Below are positions 34,783 to 43,410 of a stretch of 64,000 nucleotides of DNA, piece by piece. The notes below the pieces were generated by a model. That model had not been told where the DNA came from, made no database searches, and worked only from the letters and a program-made list of their open reading frames with translations. Origin of the DNA: Rhodothermales bacterium (GTDB taxonomy: Bacteria; Bacteroidota; Rhodothermia; Rhodothermales; UBA10348). Position numbers and translations under genes: made by a program. Location: NCBI GenBank assembly GCA_017643395.1, contig JAEPNP010000003.1, positions 124,001 to 188,000 of the forward strand, written 5' to 3'. Position 1 is the stretch's first letter. Each line of letters begins with the position of its first letter.

Positions 34783-34787
34783 GATAT

Positions 34788-34823
34788 CGGGCGGCTCGCA
34801 TTTGCGGGCCGCCCGGTTTTTTT
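34788..34823 (+). terminator. Terminator of the M16 pair
   Basis: CGGGCGGC pairs with GCCGCCCG (inner part CTCGCA/TGCGGG weaker), followed by seven T. It starts 5 bp after the second M16 stop. Confidence 0.9.
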
Positions 34824-34883: not shown

Positions 34884-35115
34884 CGGGCGGGGGTCGCCGC
34901 TTCGCCGCGGGCCGGGATTCGCGCCGGGCGGGCGTCGCCGCGTCGCCGCGAGCGGGGATTCGGGCAGGGCGGCCGTCGCCGCTTCGCCACAGGCCGGGAT
35001 TGCGCCGGGCGGCCGTCGCCGCGTCGCCGCGGGCCGGGATTCGCGCCAGGCGGGGGTCGCCGCGTCGCTGCGGGCGGCTTTTCGCACCGGGCGGCCGTCG
35101 CCGCTTCGCCACAGG
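34884..35115. repeat. 41-bp GC-rich tandem repeat, about six copies
   Basis: The core GTCGCCGC recurs at 34893, 34934, 34975, 35015, 35056 and 35097, that is every 41 bp (once 40). The units diverge (for example CGCTTCGCC versus CGCGTCGCC), so this is an old array. The period is not a multiple of three and no start codon or domain fits, so it is treated as non-coding. It lies between the M16 terminator and the TonB-receptor operon end. Confidence 0.85.
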
Positions 35116-35265
35116 GCCTAAGTCGAAAACCACCCCTGGATTCCACGTTCTGAGCCTCTCAGAGGGTATCCGGGTGTAATCGACCCCCTCAATTCCACAT
35201 CGGCCCCGGTGACGACGGACCGCCGTGTGGAATCAGGGGCCGACATTCCATGTCCGCGCCACGCT

Positions 35266-35346
35266 CAGCGCCGCGCCCCAGCGCCGCGCCACGCCCCAGC
35301 GCCGCGCCACGCCCCAGCGCCGCGCCGCCCCAGCGCCGCGCCTCGC
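35266..35346. repeat. Second GC-rich tandem array abutting the receptor stop codon
   Basis: AGCGCCGCGCC recurs at 35267, 35280, 35298, 35316 and 35332 (18-bp unit with shortened copies, joined by ACGCCCC). It ends one base before the receptor stop at 35347. A separate pair, TCGGCCCC and GGGGCCGA, lies at about 35200-35243 and could form a stem. No gene is seen between 34824 and 35346. Confidence 0.75.
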
Positions 35347-38046
35347 CTAAAACCGCGCCTTCACCCCCAGCACAACCGTGCGACCAGGCAAATACCTCGG
35401 ATCCTGGCGCAGTTCGCTCCCGTCGTGCAGCAGCCGCCAGTCGAGCTCGTTGCGCCGGTCCAGCAGATTCTCCACCTCGGCGTAGGCCTCGAGGCTCGCA
35501 CGCGGTCGCCAGCTCAACGAGACGTCGAGGGACACTCGATCGGGCAAACTGTGGGCGTCGGGATCGCTCAGGTTCCACCTCCCAGCGGTCGCGAGTCTGC
35601 GATAGTAGTCGTAGTAGGCCTGCCTGAGACCCCATCGCATGCCGGACTCCCAGGTAAGCCGTGCGCCGGCGCCGACACGATTCCAGGAGGCGTTGTGCGC
35701 AAGCGCAAGCGTTCGCGGCACGGACCACGGCGCGCTCGTTGTGCGGCCGCCGAACAGCGCCGCCGAGGTCACGCGATCCCGGGAGAGGCGCAACGTCGCC
35801 CGCGTCAGGCCAAGCGGGTTCTCCAGCTCGTTGTCCACCACGATTCCGATGTGTCGCGCGTCCTGTCCGGCGAGGAAACGATGGCCGTCCGGGCGATTGT
35901 CCAGCGTGGGAGACCACAGATAGTTGGGCGTGCGCCCGCCGTCGACCCGTTTGGCATATGCCTCCACGCGCGTGCGCAATGCGCCGCGCTGCCATTGGGC
36001 AGCCGCCGCGACGTGCACGGCCCGCGGGGGACTGAGCACGCCAGGCACCGGGAGCCAGATGCGTGTGGACGGCACCACCTCGCCCGCATTGACCGTGCTG
36101 TAGTCAAACTGCAGCACAAACTGCCGATACAGGCCCGCCGACACTCCCGCGGTCAGGTCGGGAGAAAAACGCCAGCCCAGCCGCATGCGCGGCTCGGCGT
36201 ACACAGTGGTCCGAGTGGAGTGCCAGGTAAACCGGGCGCCGCCTTCGACTACCAGGCGCTCGCCCTCGAATCGGTCGCTGAGCCAGAAGGTCAACCGTCC
36301 CATCTGCTCCCGGGCCGCCTCATTGCGGTACCCCACCACAAAGGCGTAGAGCGTGTCGATCCCGCCACCGCGATCTATCAGAAACCCGCGCGTGGCTCCG
36401 GCCGACATATCCGCCGCTCCCAGCGCATAGGCACTGGTGGTGCCGATGGCCTCAAGTCCCATCGACACGAAATGCCGGCCCCTGGCCGCGTCCAGCCGCG
36501 CGTCCACCTGCCACTCATCCAGTCGGTTTGAGTTGCTCAGGTCGATGGGCAGGTCGCCCTCCGCCAGGTTTCCCGAGTCCACCTCGGCCGCAAACTGGTC
36601 CGCCCGGGGGTTGGCCAGACGGTACCCATGCTGGTACCGGTACCTGCTGAAGCGCATCGAGCCGCTGGCAAACGCCTGTGTGCCCAGCAACGCGCGCACG
36701 CCCACCGCACCGGTCGACGTTCGCCACTGATGACGCGCGACGGCGCTGAGGAATGGCTGGGCATCGGCAACGGCTCGTTCGACGCCGTCTGCGCGGCGAT
36801 CCCCGGACAGGCCCCGACGACCGTGATACGCGGTGCCATGCACGCGCAGCCCGGGTCGGGTCTCGACGCTCCACGCCGCGTTCAGGTCGGAAAACGATGC
36901 GGTAGGTGCCAGGTCTGAGAACGAGTACAGCTCGTTGACTCTCGACTCGTTCGCGTTGGCCAGTTCACCGGTAGGGGCAAACAGCAGGAACGGGTCCGTC
37001 GTGGACCAGTCTTCCAGCGTGCCAAGCACCGAGGAGGGCCGCGTGCGACTCAGATGGGACGTTCTCCCGGACGCACGAACACGACTGCGCCCCTCCGATA
37101 CGACCAGCGAACCTTCGGTGGCGTGGGAGTTGGCCTCCGCCACGAACCCAGGCACGCCGCCGAGGGTCTGCCCGAAGTCGACCACGCCGCCCAGCAGGCT
37201 GCCGGTCTCCGCTCCGAAGCCGGACTGATACACCCGGATCCGATCCACGGCCTGCGAAGAGAACGGTCCGAAGAGACCCACCAACTGCCGTGGGAAATAC
37301 ACAGGGTGGCCGTCCAGTCGCAGCTGGAGATCACCCGCAGCACTGCCGTGGATCTGCAGGCCACCGGTGAGGTCACTGACGGCCCCAGGCATGCGCACGC
37401 GGACCTCGCCGACCTGTCGGCGGGCATCGCGAGCAGTCGGGGGCGATGCGGATTGCTCGATGACAATCGGCGCCGCTTCAATGGGCGCGGTGCGCAGGGG
37501 AGCCACGATGCGTGTCGCCGAGCCGGAGACCACATCGACCGAATCCTCCCACGCGCCATAGCCAAGGTGACTGACGGAAATGCGGTAGCGGCCCGGGAGC
37601 AGGTCGGCCAGTACAAAGCGTCCGCCGGCGCCGGTCACGGCCCAGCGCGCCTCCGGGCCGACGCGGATGTGCGCCAGCGCCAGGGGATTGCCCGTATCGG
37701 CGTCCTCCACCTGACCGGTCACGACGCCGTACGCCGCCGGCAGCGCCAGGGAAGGACCGATTACGTAGGTCCCGGAGGCGCGGCGGAAGTATTCGAGACC
37801 CGTGCCGGACAGCAGGCAGGCCAGGTAGACCTCCACATCGCCAGTGGACACGCCGCAGGTCACGCGCACGCCGCGAACCCGATCGGGGTCGTAGGCGACG
37901 GCCGTGCCCGTGCGTTCGGCGAATGTGCGGAGTGCGTGGTCGAGATCAGCGCCTCGCACATCGACACTCCACGATTGGGCCGCGGCCGGCACTGCCATTA
38001 GCAGGCCGGCCGCAAGCAGCAGACTATGTTTCCAGCCCGAGATCAC
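35347..38046 (-). CDS. TonB-dependent receptor with N-terminal STN signalling domain
   Basis: 899 residues from GTG at 38046. This start makes an exact 4-bp GTGA overlap with the preceding gene and a clean signal peptide (SLLLAAGLLMAVPAAAQ); an ATG at 38070 would add eight residues. Order: STN domain (about 28-95, VDVRGADLDHALRTFAERTG), carboxypeptidase-like beta sandwich (about 105-180, VTGQVEDADTGNPLALAHI), plug (about 205-300, YFPRQLVGLFGPFSSQAVDRI) and a 22-strand-type barrel to a C-terminal LGVKARF. The STN domain is the part that talks to FecR anti-sigma factors, which fits the fecR-like gene five places upstream. Substrate unknown. Confidence 0.92.
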   Translation of the reverse strand: MISGWKHSLLLAAGLLMAVPAAAQSWSVDVRGADLDHALRTFAERTGTAVAYDPDRVRGVRVTCGVSTGDVEVYLACLLSGTGLEYFRRASGTYVIGPSLALPAAYGVVTGQVEDADTGNPLALAHIRVGPEARWAVTGAGGRFVLADLLPGRYRISVSHLGYGAWEDSVDVVSGSATRIVAPLRTAPIEAAPIVIEQSASPPTARDARRQVGEVRVRMPGAVSDLTGGLQIHGSAAGDLQLRLDGHPVYFPRQLVGLFGPFSSQAVDRIRVYQSGFGAETGSLLGGVVDFGQTLGGVPGFVAEANSHATEGSLVVSEGRSRVRASGRTSHLSRTRPSSVLGTLEDWSTTDPFLLFAPTGELANANESRVNELYSFSDLAPTASFSDLNAAWSVETRPGLRVHGTAYHGRRGLSGDRRADGVERAVADAQPFLSAVARHQWRTSTGAVGVRALLGTQAFASGSMRFSRYRYQHGYRLANPRADQFAAEVDSGNLAEGDLPIDLSNSNRLDEWQVDARLDAARGRHFVSMGLEAIGTTSAYALGAADMSAGATRGFLIDRGGGIDTLYAFVVGYRNEAAREQMGRLTFWLSDRFEGERLVVEGGARFTWHSTRTTVYAEPRMRLGWRFSPDLTAGVSAGLYRQFVLQFDYSTVNAGEVVPSTRIWLPVPGVLSPPRAVHVAAAAQWQRGALRTRVEAYAKRVDGGRTPNYLWSPTLDNRPDGHRFLAGQDARHIGIVVDNELENPLGLTRATLRLSRDRVTSAALFGGRTTSAPWSVPRTLALAHNASWNRVGAGARLTWESGMRWGLRQAYYDYYRRLATAGRWNLSDPDAHSLPDRVSLDVSLSWRPRASLEAYAEVENLLDRRNELDWRLLHDGSELRQDPRYLPGRTVVLGVKARF

Positions 38047-39851
38047 GGACGGAGCTGAATCCCGAGCCACCAGTCCGTTCGGCGGGTGTCGTACTGGTCG
38101 GACCAGCGCGGCGAGATCAGAAGGCGCACATCCACCTGGCTCGAGGGCCGGGCCGTGATGCCCAGGATGGCACCGGTTTCGATGACTGTCCGGAAGCTCG
38201 ACGGTTCTCGGAAGCTCTCGCCGAACCGGGAGGTCACGCGGGTGACTCCGTTTTCGGTGACCTCCCTGCGATGAATCATGGCGATGGTCTCATCGTCAAT
38301 CTCGACGTCCTGATGGGTGCGCGTCACGCCGGCCACCAATTGGAAGTGGGAGGACAGATCGTGCCAGAGAAGCACGGGTATCTGCAGGGAGGATCGGCGG
38401 GCCCGGTATTCCCATCGCACTTCCTTGTCCTCGATGAGCTCCTGGTCCATGGCGTTGGACTCCACGTAGTCGCCATCGGTCCAGAAGTTGGACCACGCCA
38501 TGCTCCACCGAGACGTGACGTCTTCCCGGGTATCGAGCGACTCGACGGATCGGGCACCGGCAGCGCCGATCAGCAGGCGGGCCTTGCTCGACACCTGCCA
38601 GTCCAGGCCCACGTGCAGTCGCTGCTCATTCCCATCGCCGGTGCCAGTGCCCAGTCGCTCGTCAAAGTTGCTGGACGCGTACCGGTGGTCGTATCGGTAG
38701 GACGTGTTCGGGCGATTGGAATAGTTCTCCGATTGGGTGGAGTCATCCACCAGCACGCGCCCGGAGAGATCCAGCGATTGCCACCGCCCGGTCCAACTCA
38801 CGGACAGCAGCCGGTTTTCGTCGATTTGCTTGCGCAAGAACAAGTTGCCGCGGGTGGCGCCGCCCTCGCGCTGAATGAGGGACTCATTGAGTGAGCCCGA
38901 GCTGTGCAAGGAAAACTCCTCGGAAGCGGGAAGGCCCCGCAAGTAGTGGAAGCGGGACGCGCCGTCCTGCCACTGCGTGCCCTTGCCCGAGAGATAGCCC
39001 AGCGAACCACCAACCACCACGCGCTCGGAAACCTGCCCGTGCGCGCCGACCGAGAAGTCCAGGTGGTCATACTCCTGATTCCTGGAATCCCACTGGGACG
39101 AGAAGTTGATCTCCTGAACGGTCGCCGGGCCCGGATTGTGGAAGTTGCCCACCTCGCCGTTTCGATCGAAGGAGGCCGACGCTATGCGCGCGCCCACGCG
39201 CCACGTGTCAGACAACTGGAGAGCCGCGAAGGCCGACGGGAAGTGACCGGTGGTGCGCATCTGGTCTGAGCCGCCCGCCACCTGGGTGACGGGATAGCCC
39301 TCGTCTACCGCCGCGTTCGCCATGTCGAGGCCGCGATACAGGTTGTTCGGTACGTCGTAGTACGCCTGCGCATCGGTCGCCAATTGGTAGGTGATGCCCA
39401 CCGTGAGATCGGGCGTGCGATTCGGCGCGGGGTTGGTGATGAACGCCAGGGACATCACTGGTTCAGCCGGCCGATAGGTCTGAATGTGGTAGCGTGGCCA
39501 GTAGCCCACAAAAGACGACAGCGCCGCGTCATAATTGACCCCGTACAGCGGATAGTAGTAGTCATGTCGGGCCGCCTCGCGCGTGCTGCGAAAGTCCACA
39601 TACGCATACGACGATGAATCCTGCTGCGCCAGGGAAGGCGTCAGGTGCAGGTTCAACAGAGGGTCATTGAGCAGGCCAGGCACGCCGGTGCCGAAGCCTT
39701 CCAGGCCGTAAGGGTTGACGAACGCCGGCTTGAAAAAGAAATCGACGTTCTCGAATGCCTTCTGCAGCGCGCGGTTATCCGTGTATTGCGCAGAGGCGGG
39801 CACGGCGGCGGCCAGCACGACCACCGCGAAAAGAGAGCAGACGTGTTTCAT
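38043..39851 (-). CDS. Outer-membrane beta-barrel protein of unknown family
   Basis: 602 residues from ATG at 39851 with a signal peptide (FAVVVLAAAVPASAQ). The mature part alternates polar and aromatic residues typical of barrel strands (DLTVGITYQLATDAQAYY, RVVVGGSLGYLSGKGTQW, WRVGARIASASF) and ends QYDTRRTDWWLGIQLRP with an aromatic-rich last strand. I do not recognise the family. It lies 7 bp after the DUF6174 lipoprotein and overlaps the TonB receptor by 4 bp, so it is probably the receptor's partner at the outer membrane. Confidence 0.72.
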   Translation of the reverse strand: MKHVCSLFAVVVLAAAVPASAQYTDNRALQKAFENVDFFFKPAFVNPYGLEGFGTGVPGLLNDPLLNLHLTPSLAQQDSSSYAYVDFRSTREAARHDYYYPLYGVNYDAALSSFVGYWPRYHIQTYRPAEPVMSLAFITNPAPNRTPDLTVGITYQLATDAQAYYDVPNNLYRGLDMANAAVDEGYPVTQVAGGSDQMRTTGHFPSAFAALQLSDTWRVGARIASASFDRNGEVGNFHNPGPATVQEINFSSQWDSRNQEYDHLDFSVGAHGQVSERVVVGGSLGYLSGKGTQWQDGASRFHYLRGLPASEEFSLHSSGSLNESLIQREGGATRGNLFLRKQIDENRLLSVSWTGRWQSLDLSGRVLVDDSTQSENYSNRPNTSYRYDHRYASSNFDERLGTGTGDGNEQRLHVGLDWQVSSKARLLIGAAGARSVESLDTREDVTSRWSMAWSNFWTDGDYVESNAMDQELIEDKEVRWEYRARRSSLQIPVLLWHDLSSHFQLVAGVTRTHQDVEIDDETIAMIHRREVTENGVTRVTSRFGESFREPSSFRTVIETGAILGITARPSSQVDVRLLISPRWSDQYDTRRTDWWLGIQLRP

Positions 39852-39858
39852 GGCAGAG

Positions 39859-40641
39859 TCAGGAATTGGTCGGTTCGACCACCAGGTAGATCCAGTAGTC
39901 TTCATCCGGAATGGGTGAGGGGACGGAGCCGGGATAGGGACTGGCGGAGATCATGGTGACGGTGACGCCAAATGCGCTGCCAGTGGGCGAGTCACCATCC
40001 AGGTTGCCGCGACGGACTAGTCGCAGTTCATCCACCACGTTGCCACTGATGGCGGACACATTGACCACGATCCGGCCCTCCCAAATACAGTCGGCATTGA
40101 TGGGACACCGGCTGTCCTCCACGATTTCGGAGAACACCAGCCGCACACCCGCTGCGGCCTGCGCCGCTTCACCAAAGTCGAGTCGGAAGACGTCGGTAGC
40201 CGGCGTCAGGTCCACACTCCGGACCTGGTACATGATCTCGTCATCCACCGCATCGGCGAGCCAGTCGATGGAGATCTCGGTCGGATAGCCCAGTTCGGGA
40301 TGGTACGTGACCGTGAGTTCGTCCGCTTCGCGAGTGGCCTCCTCGATGAGGTCAAAGAGCTCATCGACGGTCGGGATGTACTGCCACCAGGTCTCGTCCA
40401 CCACCCAGTAGTCTTCCTGCTGCTTGATGGCGGCCAGTGAATCGTCCCGGACAAAAATGTGCAGTTCACCGGAGCCCGCGCAGAAGCAGCCGCGAAACAG
40501 CTGCATGTCATAGTCGGCGGACGCGGAAGACTGCCAGCGAGCCCGGGCCTGCTGCAGGTCTGTCAGCTCCGTCACGGTGCCCGGACCAGTCAGCGTGCAG
40601 CCCGCAAGCAGCAATGCAGGGAGAAGAAGAAGGTGTTTCAT
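39859..40641 (-). CDS. DUF6174-like lipoprotein
   Basis: 260 residues with a lipoprotein signal (LLLPALLLAGC, Cys 15). The first half matches the DUF6174 pattern: RWQSSASADYDMQLFRGCFC, then a short strand with GELHIFVRDD and a later VDELFDLIEEATREADELTVTYHPELGYPTEISIDW. The second half has DSRCPINADCIWEGRIVVNV, a cysteine motif seen in many Bacteroidota lipoproteins. Four cysteines of the mature protein may form disulfides. It lies 5 bp after the serpin gene and is probably surface- or periplasm-exposed. Function unknown. Confidence 0.75.
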   Translation of the reverse strand: MKHLLLLPALLLAGCTLTGPGTVTELTDLQQARARWQSSASADYDMQLFRGCFCAGSGELHIFVRDDSLAAIKQQEDYWVVDETWWQYIPTVDELFDLIEEATREADELTVTYHPELGYPTEISIDWLADAVDDEIMYQVRSVDLTPATDVFRLDFGEAAQAAAGVRLVFSEIVEDSRCPINADCIWEGRIVVNVSAISGNVVDELRLVRRGNLDGDSPTGSAFGVTVTMISASPYPGSVPSPIPDEDYWIYLVVEPTNS

Positions 40642-40646
40642 GGCGA

Positions 40647-41852
40647 TTACAGCTGGGCGATGCGGCCCATGAACAGCACGGAGCCCGAAATCCGCTCCCG
40701 AATGAAGAGCAGGAAGGGGCGATCCAGCGTGACGCGGAGTGGTCCGCTGCCCGCAGACTCCACAATGATGACGGTGGTGACGGCGGCGGCCTCGGTACCC
40801 TCCTCATTCACGTCGAGCACGGCCTGGTGGATCACGTCGTCAATCCACGGTCCGCCTCCCTCAACGAGCCGCGTGAAGTCGGCCGAACCCGGGGCAAACG
40901 CAGCCTCCATGCCCATGCTTTTCAGCATGGGAACCAGGCTTTCCTTGTACTCCACCTTGAACCGCGGCATCGACAGTATGACGTCGGTGGGGGATAGCTC
41001 GGTGGTCCAGGCTGCCACATCATCCGCCTGCAGTTCCGCAAGCACATCGTCCGTGGTGAACCCGGGCTCGGGCAGCACGACGGTCATCGAATACAGCGAA
41101 TCACCGTATGGCAGATCCACAGCCGTGTAGTTGGCGTGTCGGAAGGCCGGCAGATCGGCCTGTTGGGCCATCATGGGGACCTGAGCGGTGGTGCCGTCCG
41201 CGTTGGCGAAGCTCGCCTCCCGCGTCTCATTGGGGTCGAATTCGTACAGCCACGTGCCCTTGAAATAGATGGCGTTGATCAGGTACATGACCACCGATCC
41301 GTCGATCTGCTCGATGACCTTGTCGATGAGGCCTTCGGTCTTTTCGTCGACCCAGCCGTTGATGCGATCCACCGTAGCAGGATCATTGAAGTCCGCCTCG
41401 GCCACTTCTGCCGCGAAGTATTCCCGGTTGGTATCCAGGAACTCCGAGCGAACGGGATAGCCGTTCCGATACCAGATGGAATTGGCGATGCGCAGGCGCA
41501 CCACCGGATCCAGCGTCTCCAGGAACGAGGCCAGATCGCGGTAGGAACTGTTGACCTCCTCCGGGTTCAGGGAGCCCTTGCGGAGCACCGACACCATCTC
41601 GTCGTAGGTCTGCCCGTTCGCGCCATTGGCCGTCATGCCCAGGGCAAACGACACCGACGTGGGGCTCATGAACACGTTTCCTTCCTCGCCCTGGACGAGC
41701 TCATTGAAGAGCTGCAGCCCGAACGCGTTGTCGGTACGCACCACCTCCTGCACGCGCGCGGGCAATTCGGCCGGCGGATCGACATGCGGTTCGTCCGTAA
41801 AAGAGCAGCCGGCCAACAGAATGACCGTCGCAAGCACAGCGAAAACTCTCAT
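40647..41852 (-). CDS. Serpin-family protease inhibitor, lipoprotein
   Basis: 401 residues. Lipoprotein signal (VLATVILLAGC) and then a full serpin fold: FMSPTSVSFALGMTANGANGQT near 60, LINAIYFKGTWLYEFDPNET near 190, MPRFKVEY near 295. The reactive-centre hinge NEEGTEAAAVTTVIIVESAG has Glu and small residues as in inhibitory serpins, followed by DRPFLLFIRERISGSVLFMGRI. It would trap a serine or cysteine protease by loop insertion. It overlaps the FecR gene by 4 bp, so it is under the same sigma/anti-sigma unit as the TonB receptor. A protein of this type beside a signal-transducing receptor is unusual. Confidence 0.93.
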   Translation of the reverse strand: MRVFAVLATVILLAGCSFTDEPHVDPPAELPARVQEVVRTDNAFGLQLFNELVQGEEGNVFMSPTSVSFALGMTANGANGQTYDEMVSVLRKGSLNPEEVNSSYRDLASFLETLDPVVRLRIANSIWYRNGYPVRSEFLDTNREYFAAEVAEADFNDPATVDRINGWVDEKTEGLIDKVIEQIDGSVVMYLINAIYFKGTWLYEFDPNETREASFANADGTTAQVPMMAQQADLPAFRHANYTAVDLPYGDSLYSMTVVLPEPGFTTDDVLAELQADDVAAWTTELSPTDVILSMPRFKVEYKESLVPMLKSMGMEAAFAPGSADFTRLVEGGGPWIDDVIHQAVLDVNEEGTEAAAVTTVIIVESAGSGPLRVTLDRPFLLFIRERISGSVLFMGRIAQL

Positions 41853-42784
41853 TGTGCGGGTTCTATGGTATATCCGCCCAGCACCGGGCGGTAGGTGAGA
41901 TTGAGTGCGAAGCAGATGGCGTCGAGCACATCCTCGAGTTCACCTGCCGAGGGAGCCACGTAGGTCGTGGGTCGATCCGAAACGGAAGCGGCCGCGCTGA
42001 GCGACACGTCAAATCGCCTCTCCAGAGAGGCCAGCGCGTCCCGCAGGGGGAGATCCACCAGCGCGATGCCGCCGGTGCGCCACCCCGACGCCTGTGCCGG
42101 TGTGAGTCGCTCTTCACGGGCGATGCGGTCCGCGGCGATGCGCACCGTTTCTCCCGGGACCAGCGTTTCCGCAGATCCGGAGGCTTCCACGCGCACGCCG
42201 CCTTCTTCCAGCGAGACCAGCGTTTCCGGCCGCTCGGCTGCGGGCCAGGCGCGCACGTTGAAGCGCGTACCCGTCACCACAACGCGGGCGTTGAAGGTCT
42301 CCACCGCAAAGGTGCGCTCGCCGTGCGCGACGCCGAAGAACGCCTCTCCCTGAAGCTGAACTTGCCGCTCGGAGCGGAGCAAGAACGGCTTCCAGGCGAT
42401 GCGACTTCCGGCGGCCAGTGTGACCCCCGTGCCGTCGGGAAGCGTCACCTGTTCGGTGGCGCCGGCGGCAACCGACACCGTGCGGGTGCGGAACTGGTCA
42501 GCGGTGGTTATGAGCAGTGCGAGCGTGGCAACGGCCAGGGCAGGACGAAGCCACGGGAGGGCAGTGCCGCTGGATGCCGTGCCGCGAGCCGCGGAGGCGC
42601 GCGAGCCGCGGAGGGCCGAGCGCCGGACCGCGCGAGCGCCGGAGCCCACAAGGGCGGAGTCCGCCGCCGTGCCCAGACCGGCCTCGCGCGCCGCACGCAC
42701 GGTGCGTTCCGCGAAGTACGGCCCGAAGCTTTCGGCGCGGTCCTCTCGGGCCGCATCGGCAATCAAACGATCCAGATCAGCCAT
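41849..42784 (-). CDS. FecR-type anti-sigma factor
   Basis: 311 residues. Cytoplasmic sigma-binding N-terminus, a single membrane helix (LRPALAVATLALLITT, about 75-92), then a FecR domain (VTLPDGTGVTLAAGSRIAW, GEAFFGVAHGERTFAVET, GTRFNVRAW) and a C-terminal STN-like/DUF4974 domain (VDLPLRDALASLERRFDVSL). It holds the sigma factor at the membrane until the receptor's STN domain signals. It overlaps sigma by 8 bp and the serpin by 4 bp. Confidence 0.94.
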   Translation of the reverse strand: MADLDRLIADAAREDRAESFGPYFAERTVRAAREAGLGTAADSALVGSGARAVRRSALRGSRASAARGTASSGTALPWLRPALAVATLALLITTADQFRTRTVSVAAGATEQVTLPDGTGVTLAAGSRIAWKPFLLRSERQVQLQGEAFFGVAHGERTFAVETFNARVVVTGTRFNVRAWPAAERPETLVSLEEGGVRVEASGSAETLVPGETVRIAADRIAREERLTPAQASGWRTGGIALVDLPLRDALASLERRFDVSLSAAASVSDRPTTYVAPSAGELEDVLDAICFALNLTYRPVLGGYTIEPAQ

Positions 42785-43397
42785 CGATCACCCCTCCGAG
42801 CATCTCGCGAAGACGCTTCTGGGCGCGGGACAGGCGAGACATGACCGTGCCCTCGGGGATGCCGAGGATGGCTGCCGTCTCGGCGGTAGAGTGCTCCTGC
42901 ACCAGTCGCAGAACCGCAACCGACCGGAAGTCGGCCGGCAGCGCGCGAATGGCGGAAGACACCAGGGTGCCCAACTCGGTGCGTTCCAGCGCCTTGTCCG
43001 CCGGCAGTTCCGGAGCCTCAAACCGATCCTCTGGCGGACCAAAGAACCATCGCCTCATGCGCTGGCGCCGTTTGATGGCGTTCAGCGAGAGGTTGATGGC
43101 TGATCTGGTGAGGTAGGTGGACACGTCGGCGTCGCCGCGGAAGTTGGCTGCGTTTCGGAAGAACCGGATGAAGACCTCCTGGCCGATGTCCTCCGCGTCC
43201 GGACCGCGACCGATCATGCCGATCACGGTGGCAGCGACCACACCTTCGTACTGGTCGACAAACGTCTTCCAGGCGTCGGCATCTCCCTGCCTGACCCGGT
43301 CCAACAGGGCGGCACCATCCGGATTCGCCCCTGAGGAGGCCATGCGAGCTTCTTCAGCCATGTTCGGTGAGTTAGACAACCGATCTTCCGCGCTCAT
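42777..43397 (-). CDS. ECF RNA polymerase sigma factor
   Basis: 206 residues from ATG at 43397 (an internal ATG at residue 12 or 19 is possible). Region 2 (FVDQYEGVVAATVIGM, DAEDIGQEVFIRFFRNA) binds core polymerase and the -10 element. Region 4 (IRALPADFRSVAVLRLVQEHSTAETAAILGIPEGTVMSRLSRAQKRLREML) binds -35. No region 1 or 3, as expected of ECF group IV. It leads the receptor-serpin unit and overlaps the anti-sigma gene by 8 bp. Confidence 0.94.
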   Translation of the reverse strand: MSAEDRLSNSPNMAEEARMASSGANPDGAALLDRVRQGDADAWKTFVDQYEGVVAATVIGMIGRGPDAEDIGQEVFIRFFRNAANFRGDADVSTYLTRSAINLSLNAIKRRQRMRRWFFGPPEDRFEAPELPADKALERTELGTLVSSAIRALPADFRSVAVLRLVQEHSTAETAAILGIPEGTVMSRLSRAQKRLREMLGGVIDG

Positions 43398-43410
43398 TCC
43401 CGCCGACGAC

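Follow-up and report, generated by a model that had tools for sequence, protein, structure and literature searches.

What does a serpin gene do in a set of genes that is otherwise arranged like a FecI/FecR/FecA (FecIRA) signalling unit? Such a set occupies positions 35347-43397 of the window, by which we mean the whole 64,000-nucleotide stretch of Rhodothermales bacterium DNA that was analysed. The initial annotation had read it as a sigma factor/FecR/receptor unit that controls the serpin, with the receptor sensing a protease or importing a serpin/peptide complex. The first part of that reading was supported and the second was not. Our analysis favours, with a probability of roughly 0.7, an operon for FecI/FecR/FecA-type cell-surface signalling whose output is a set of surface lipoproteins that includes the serpin. 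The locus contains the following features:

43372..43401, minus strand: promoter-like element through which the ECF sigma factor presumably regulates its own operon
42777..43361, minus strand: ECF sigma factor (Pfam Sigma70_r2/r4; sigma70-ECF superfamily above cut-off)
41849..42784, minus strand: FecR-type anti-sigma factor (Pfam FecR 7e-14; FecR_C 2e-4, below cut-off)
40647..41852, minus strand: serpin with lipobox and inhibitory hinge (Pfam Serpin 1e-107)
39859..40641, minus strand: DUF6174 lipoprotein (PF19671, 1e-31) with an extra C-terminal SRCPxxxxCxWxG domain
38043..39851, minus strand: outer-membrane beta-barrel by predicted structure, family not assigned by Pfam
35347..38046, minus strand: TonB-dependent receptor with an N-terminal STN-type signalling domain and CarboxypepD_reg (Pfam and profile match)

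An ORF check of the window DNA confirmed all six genes on the minus strand, and the junctions matched the overlaps claimed for them (8, 4, -5, -7 and 4 bp). The sigma and FecR genes overlap by 8 bp and the FecR and serpin genes by 4 bp (ATGA), gaps of 5 bp and 7 bp follow between serpin and DUF6174 and between DUF6174 and barrel, and the barrel gene overlaps the receptor gene by 4 bp (GTGA), with the receptor starting at the proposed GTG at 38046, which overlaps the barrel stop. A conserved neighbour, mtaB, lies ~45 bp upstream of the earlier-annotated sigma start, 43397. At the other end, two GC-rich tandem-repeat arrays were seen between the convergent M16 peptidase and receptor genes, one with a 41-bp unit in 5.7 copies (34884-35118) and one with an 18-bp unit in 4.6 copies (35268-35347), and a strong terminator-like hairpin is found on the plus strand directly 3' of the M16 peptidase stop codon (34786-34817).

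The serpin gene is the only one in its genome, and its domain is complete (Pfam positions 3-368 of 370). The claim of a lipoprotein serpin with an inhibitory-type hinge was borne out, with a lipobox reading LAGC and a hinge reading EEGTEAAAVT, which contains the E-x-G-T-E-A-A-A pattern of inhibitory serpins. Its best solved relative is miropin of Tannerella forsythia (5ncs, 1e-80), which has the identical hinge. The two differ in the reactive loop, which is VEMVKTSS in miropin and TTVIIVESAG in the window. The latter contains no basic residue, suggesting that a trypsin-like protease is an unlikely target.

The signalling genes have the composition of a FecIRA unit. The sigma factor (Sigma70_r2, 1e-12) is of the ECF type and adjoins the FecR-type anti-sigma factor. 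As a single sequence, the receptor matched CarboxypepD_reg (4e-14), with Plug (0.012) and STN (0.02) each below the Pfam cut-off. A profile built from nine related receptors matched three solved structures: the PupB signalling domain (2a02, 1.7e-7), the FemA signalling region (8s34, 1e-6) and a TonB-linked receptor (9gbc, 1e-13). These matches identify a TonB-dependent receptor with an N-terminal signalling domain and indicate that its reading as a transducer is sound. A Pfam scan of the six genes and two flanking genes found no ABC transporter and no SusD family member, and hence no SusC/SusD pair.

Pfam assigned the barrel to no family, and its AlphaFold2 model (mean pLDDT 76, moderate to good confidence) is an outer-membrane beta-barrel that matches porins, FadL and CymA with Z of 15-22. 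The predicted structure of the DUF6174 protein resembles the LolA/RseB/MucB/LprG fold, to which nearly all of its listed matches belong, but too weakly to be assigned to it (Z no higher than 7.6; Foldseek E 0.007). A search of solved structures with DUF6174, the SRCP lipoprotein and the BP74_N lipoprotein returned nothing significant. Both DUF6174 and a serpin are present in 10 genomes of the first 60 relatives; the two are adjacent in 6, and a seventh genome, G005, is consistent with adjacency across contig ends. In family f4 the DUF6174-serpin pair occurs by itself, in reversed order and without the sigma gene. This isolated pair suggests that DUF6174 and the serpin may be directly linked in function.

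Comparison of the DNA upstream of the sigma genes revealed a conserved element, GGGAAT-N15-GTTGTCTAA in the window. Its consensus, GGAAT-N17-TGTCYAW, precedes the sigma gene at each of the 10 loci of the order whose upstream DNA is intact, with GGAAT and TGTC-A invariant, the spacing fixed and the spacer sequence variable. It is present also where mtaB is not adjacent (G036) or lies 485 bp away (G027). From this element, the sigma factor would be expected to drive its own operon. The ATG at 43397 falls within the -35-like box of the element, so this part of the initial annotation of the six genes is probably wrong. Translation of the sigma factor probably starts at ATG 43361, giving 194 aa, and either 43361 or 43343 is a more likely start than 43397.

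The exact degenerate pattern, a consensus derived after the fact, occurs once in the 4.5-Mb genome of the window, ahead of the six-gene operon. Scans with one mismatch (0.48 chance matches expected per 64 kb) and with two mismatches (3 matches in the same genome besides the operon) were uninformative, and a sigma-70 consensus scan of the region detected no promoter. The GGAAT/TGTC element is absent from the loci of families f16 and f20, and it was not found before orphan serpins or before the DUF6174-serpin pairs of f4. Four f20 loci (L152, L155, L158 and L159) contain repeated GTGTA(T) boxes just upstream of the sigma gene.

To examine recurrence, the neighbourhoods of serpins, receptors and DUF6174 genes were taken from the genomes of the class and annotated with purpose-built profiles. 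At least 16 genomes, 10 within the order and 6 outside it, have a serpin gene next to a sigma/FecR/receptor set, and the pairing of serpin and receptor is thus not confined to the genome of the window. The 10 genomes of the order fall into five families: the window genome, G010 and G005 (f1); G205 and G206 (f2); G054, G045 and G033 (f8); G036 (f11); and G219 (f13). Their locus runs mtaB-sigma-FecR-serpin, in some with DUF6174 and/or the barrel, and then the receptor, with mtaB as the upstream flank in f1, f2 and f8. The exact six-gene order, whose recurrence had been suggested as support for a system, was found again in G010 and, split across two contigs, in G005. The other loci are incomplete: the barrel is missing in G036 and G219, DUF6174 in G205 and G206, and both in the f8 genomes. 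Contig ends interrupt several order-level loci. The half that is missing from those of G033 and G205 (mtaB-promoter-sigma-FecR) was located on another contig, and for G206 and G219 the serpin-to-receptor half alone was seen.

In the 6 genomes outside the order, which belong to f16 and f20, the serpin directly adjoins the sigma/FecR/receptor set, in tandem in f16 and divergently in f20, and the receptors form a clade well separated from that of the window. In f20, two serpins of different paralogue clades adjoin related receptors. On the serpin tree, the FecIRA-linked label must change at least five times. The number of serpins expected by chance within 4 kb of a receptor-family gene in the class is ~0.24, a figure based on rough averages, ~1 receptor-family gene per genome and an assumption of independence; chance neighbourhood was rejected against the at least 16 seen. 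The receptor family itself occurs in 148 of 240 class genomes, mostly without an adjacent serpin.

A second pattern was observed in f12, f17, f18 and f19. These loci resemble that of the window in placing a serpin next to an ECF sigma gene; they differ in the serpin clade and in the type of anti-sigma factor, here an anti-sigma-like partner with a C-terminal barrel-like domain, and no FecR or TonB receptor was found beside them. Sigma genes adjoin serpins in Bacteroidota MAGs too; the loci of these two kinds are L082, L145, L147, L148 and L149, and also L020, L022 and L023.

Related loci without the serpin were also found. The congener G001 retains mtaB-sigma-FecR-DUF6174-barrel-receptor with the same promoter, and no serpin was found anywhere in its genome. 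G027 retains sigma, FecR, barrel and receptor alone, the receptor being a close relative without an adjoining serpin, and G032 retains sigma, FecR and a related receptor, its serpin being located elsewhere. A lone DUF6174 gene lies beside mtaB in three genomes (G003, G011 and G025) and beside an M16 peptidase gene in G002. At such loci (L070, L083, L084 and L085) no serpin, sigma or receptor was seen, as though DUF6174 had outlasted the rest of the locus. By these losses, the circuit is modular in composition and is not built around the serpin.

We investigated whether the element marks further genes in relatives. Genomes of the order otherwise contain about one copy of the pattern each. Where the system is present, 8 of 29 extra sites precede a signal-peptide or lipoprotein gene; of the control sites, taken from genomes that lack the system, 0 of 31 do so (p = 0.0017; one strict automatic rule). 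On visual inspection, roughly half of the 29 appear genuine. The genes behind the extra sites include a DUF4377 lipoprotein, a DUF1800 gene and a TonB receptor, and the extra copies stand ahead of surface lipoproteins and large secreted proteins. The links described here played no part in deriving the pattern. In G054, a SRCPxxxxCxWxG lipoprotein stands alone behind the same promoter; in the window, DUF6174 carries a related domain as a fusion. BP74_N lipoproteins, 49% identical, lie behind the promoter in G033 and G054 (L217:2797-3204 and L226:942-1343). Small lipoproteins with a GFYSWGFE sequence lie behind it in G036 and G206, and a relative adjoins a serpin in G134; this family, with a GxYxxGFE motif, is found at L144:5404-5784, L209:1439-1807 and L224:3777-4163. 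Neither the SRCP domain nor the GFYSWGFE lipoproteins matched any Pfam family. Judging from the extra copies before surface and secreted proteins, the sigma factor seems to control a regulon of surface proteins, the serpin among them. Together with the serpin-free locus of G001, the promoter before unrelated lipoproteins makes the serpin look like one output of the circuit rather than its dedicated subject.

In the mechanism that we propose, whose logic is that of FecIRA-type signalling (PMC9249621), an outside ligand would bind the TonB-dependent receptor, whose STN domain would contact FecR across the periplasm. FecR would then release the ECF sigma factor, which would transcribe its own operon from the element and raise the receptor, the barrel, the DUF6174 lipoprotein and the serpin on the cell envelope, where the serpin would capture attacking serine proteases through the suicide mechanism typical of serpins. 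Co-transcription, sigma binding to the element, FecR release, surface exposure and protease inhibition are steps that we infer from the genes and their arrangement. Co-regulation of the serpin with the circuit is well supported by comparative sequence evidence, and control by a FecIRA-type unit is the most likely explanation, since the arrangement recurs and a dedicated promoter-like element precedes the operon.

The locus could instead be a FecIRA unit of the ordinary kind, serving the uptake of iron, a glycan or some other small ligand, with the serpin as an incidental passenger. The breadth of the receptor family, mostly serpin-free, would fit such a unit, as would the serpin-free sets of G001, G027 and G032 and the fact that the matched signalling domains, of PupB and FemA, belong to siderophore receptors. 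However, serpin adjacency recurs far above chance, in five families within the order and in f16 and f20 outside it, serpins of different paralogue clades adjoin related receptors, and neither an ABC transporter nor a SusD partner is present among the scanned genes. We regard a passenger serpin as unlikely. Alternatively, the genes might be neighbours by inheritance only, the serpin having its own promoter or being reached by read-through from mtaB. The closeness of mtaB is in keeping with read-through, and shared descent explains part of the recurrence, but the element lies upstream of sigma in 10 loci, even without an adjoining mtaB or with mtaB at a distance, the genes overlap, and the association arose repeatedly and independently. 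Inheritance alone is therefore very improbable.

We also considered what the receptor might sense. In a protease-sensing loop, the ligand of the receptor would be a protease outside the cell, the peptides that it produces or a complex of serpin and protease, and binding would raise the serpin, a scheme that has the appeal of circuit logic. Against such a loop, G001 has the receptor and the promoter without a serpin, most receptor relatives, including those of G027 and G032, have none adjoining, the promoter precedes unrelated lipoproteins, and the sequence gives no pointer to a protein ligand. Protease sensing by the receptor is speculative, and we consider the loop quite improbable. Import of a serpin complex as the main function was rejected because G001 keeps the receptor without a serpin. 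A bolder form of the FecIRA-type reading, which we also consider improbable, would make this the first cell-surface-signalling circuit for antiprotease defence. The receptor would read a cue of extracellular proteolysis and raise an envelope serpin and its LolA-fold DUF6174 partner; relatives would add further small surface lipoproteins, which may be inhibitors too.

A full-text search of open-licence literature, which is weak evidence for absence, found no description of a serpin under ECF/FecR/TonB control, in agreement with the initial annotation, and the serpin-carrying FecIRA-type operon appears to be previously undescribed. On serpin induction, the literature searched offered a single two-component case, inducible by protease, and regulation by carbohydrates in Bifidobacterium. 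A unit that is conserved and has a promoter of its own makes the use and switching of serpins in free-living bacteria testable; the element predicts a regulon, and the receptor offers a handle on the inducing signal. If the FecIRA-type reading is true, it would extend such signalling from uptake to surface protection.

The nearest precedent is the serpin operon of Bifidobacterium breve, which has a protease-inducible two-component system (PMC8012564). In both, regulatory and serpin genes are neighbours, but the regulator of B. breve is a two-component system in a Gram-positive bacterium, whereas the window has an ECF sigma factor, FecR and a TonB receptor. The window shares its ECF sigma factor, FecR-type anti-sigma factor and TonB-dependent receptor with N-terminal signalling domain with FecI/FecR/FecA of E. 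coli and with PupI/PupR/PupB, FpvA and FemA of Pseudomonas (PMC9249621). It differs from them in an output that adds a serpin, a DUF6174 lipoprotein and a second barrel, in an operon without an ABC transporter. In E. coli, fecIR is driven by sigma-70 (PMC9249621), whereas here the sigma gene itself stands behind the conserved element.
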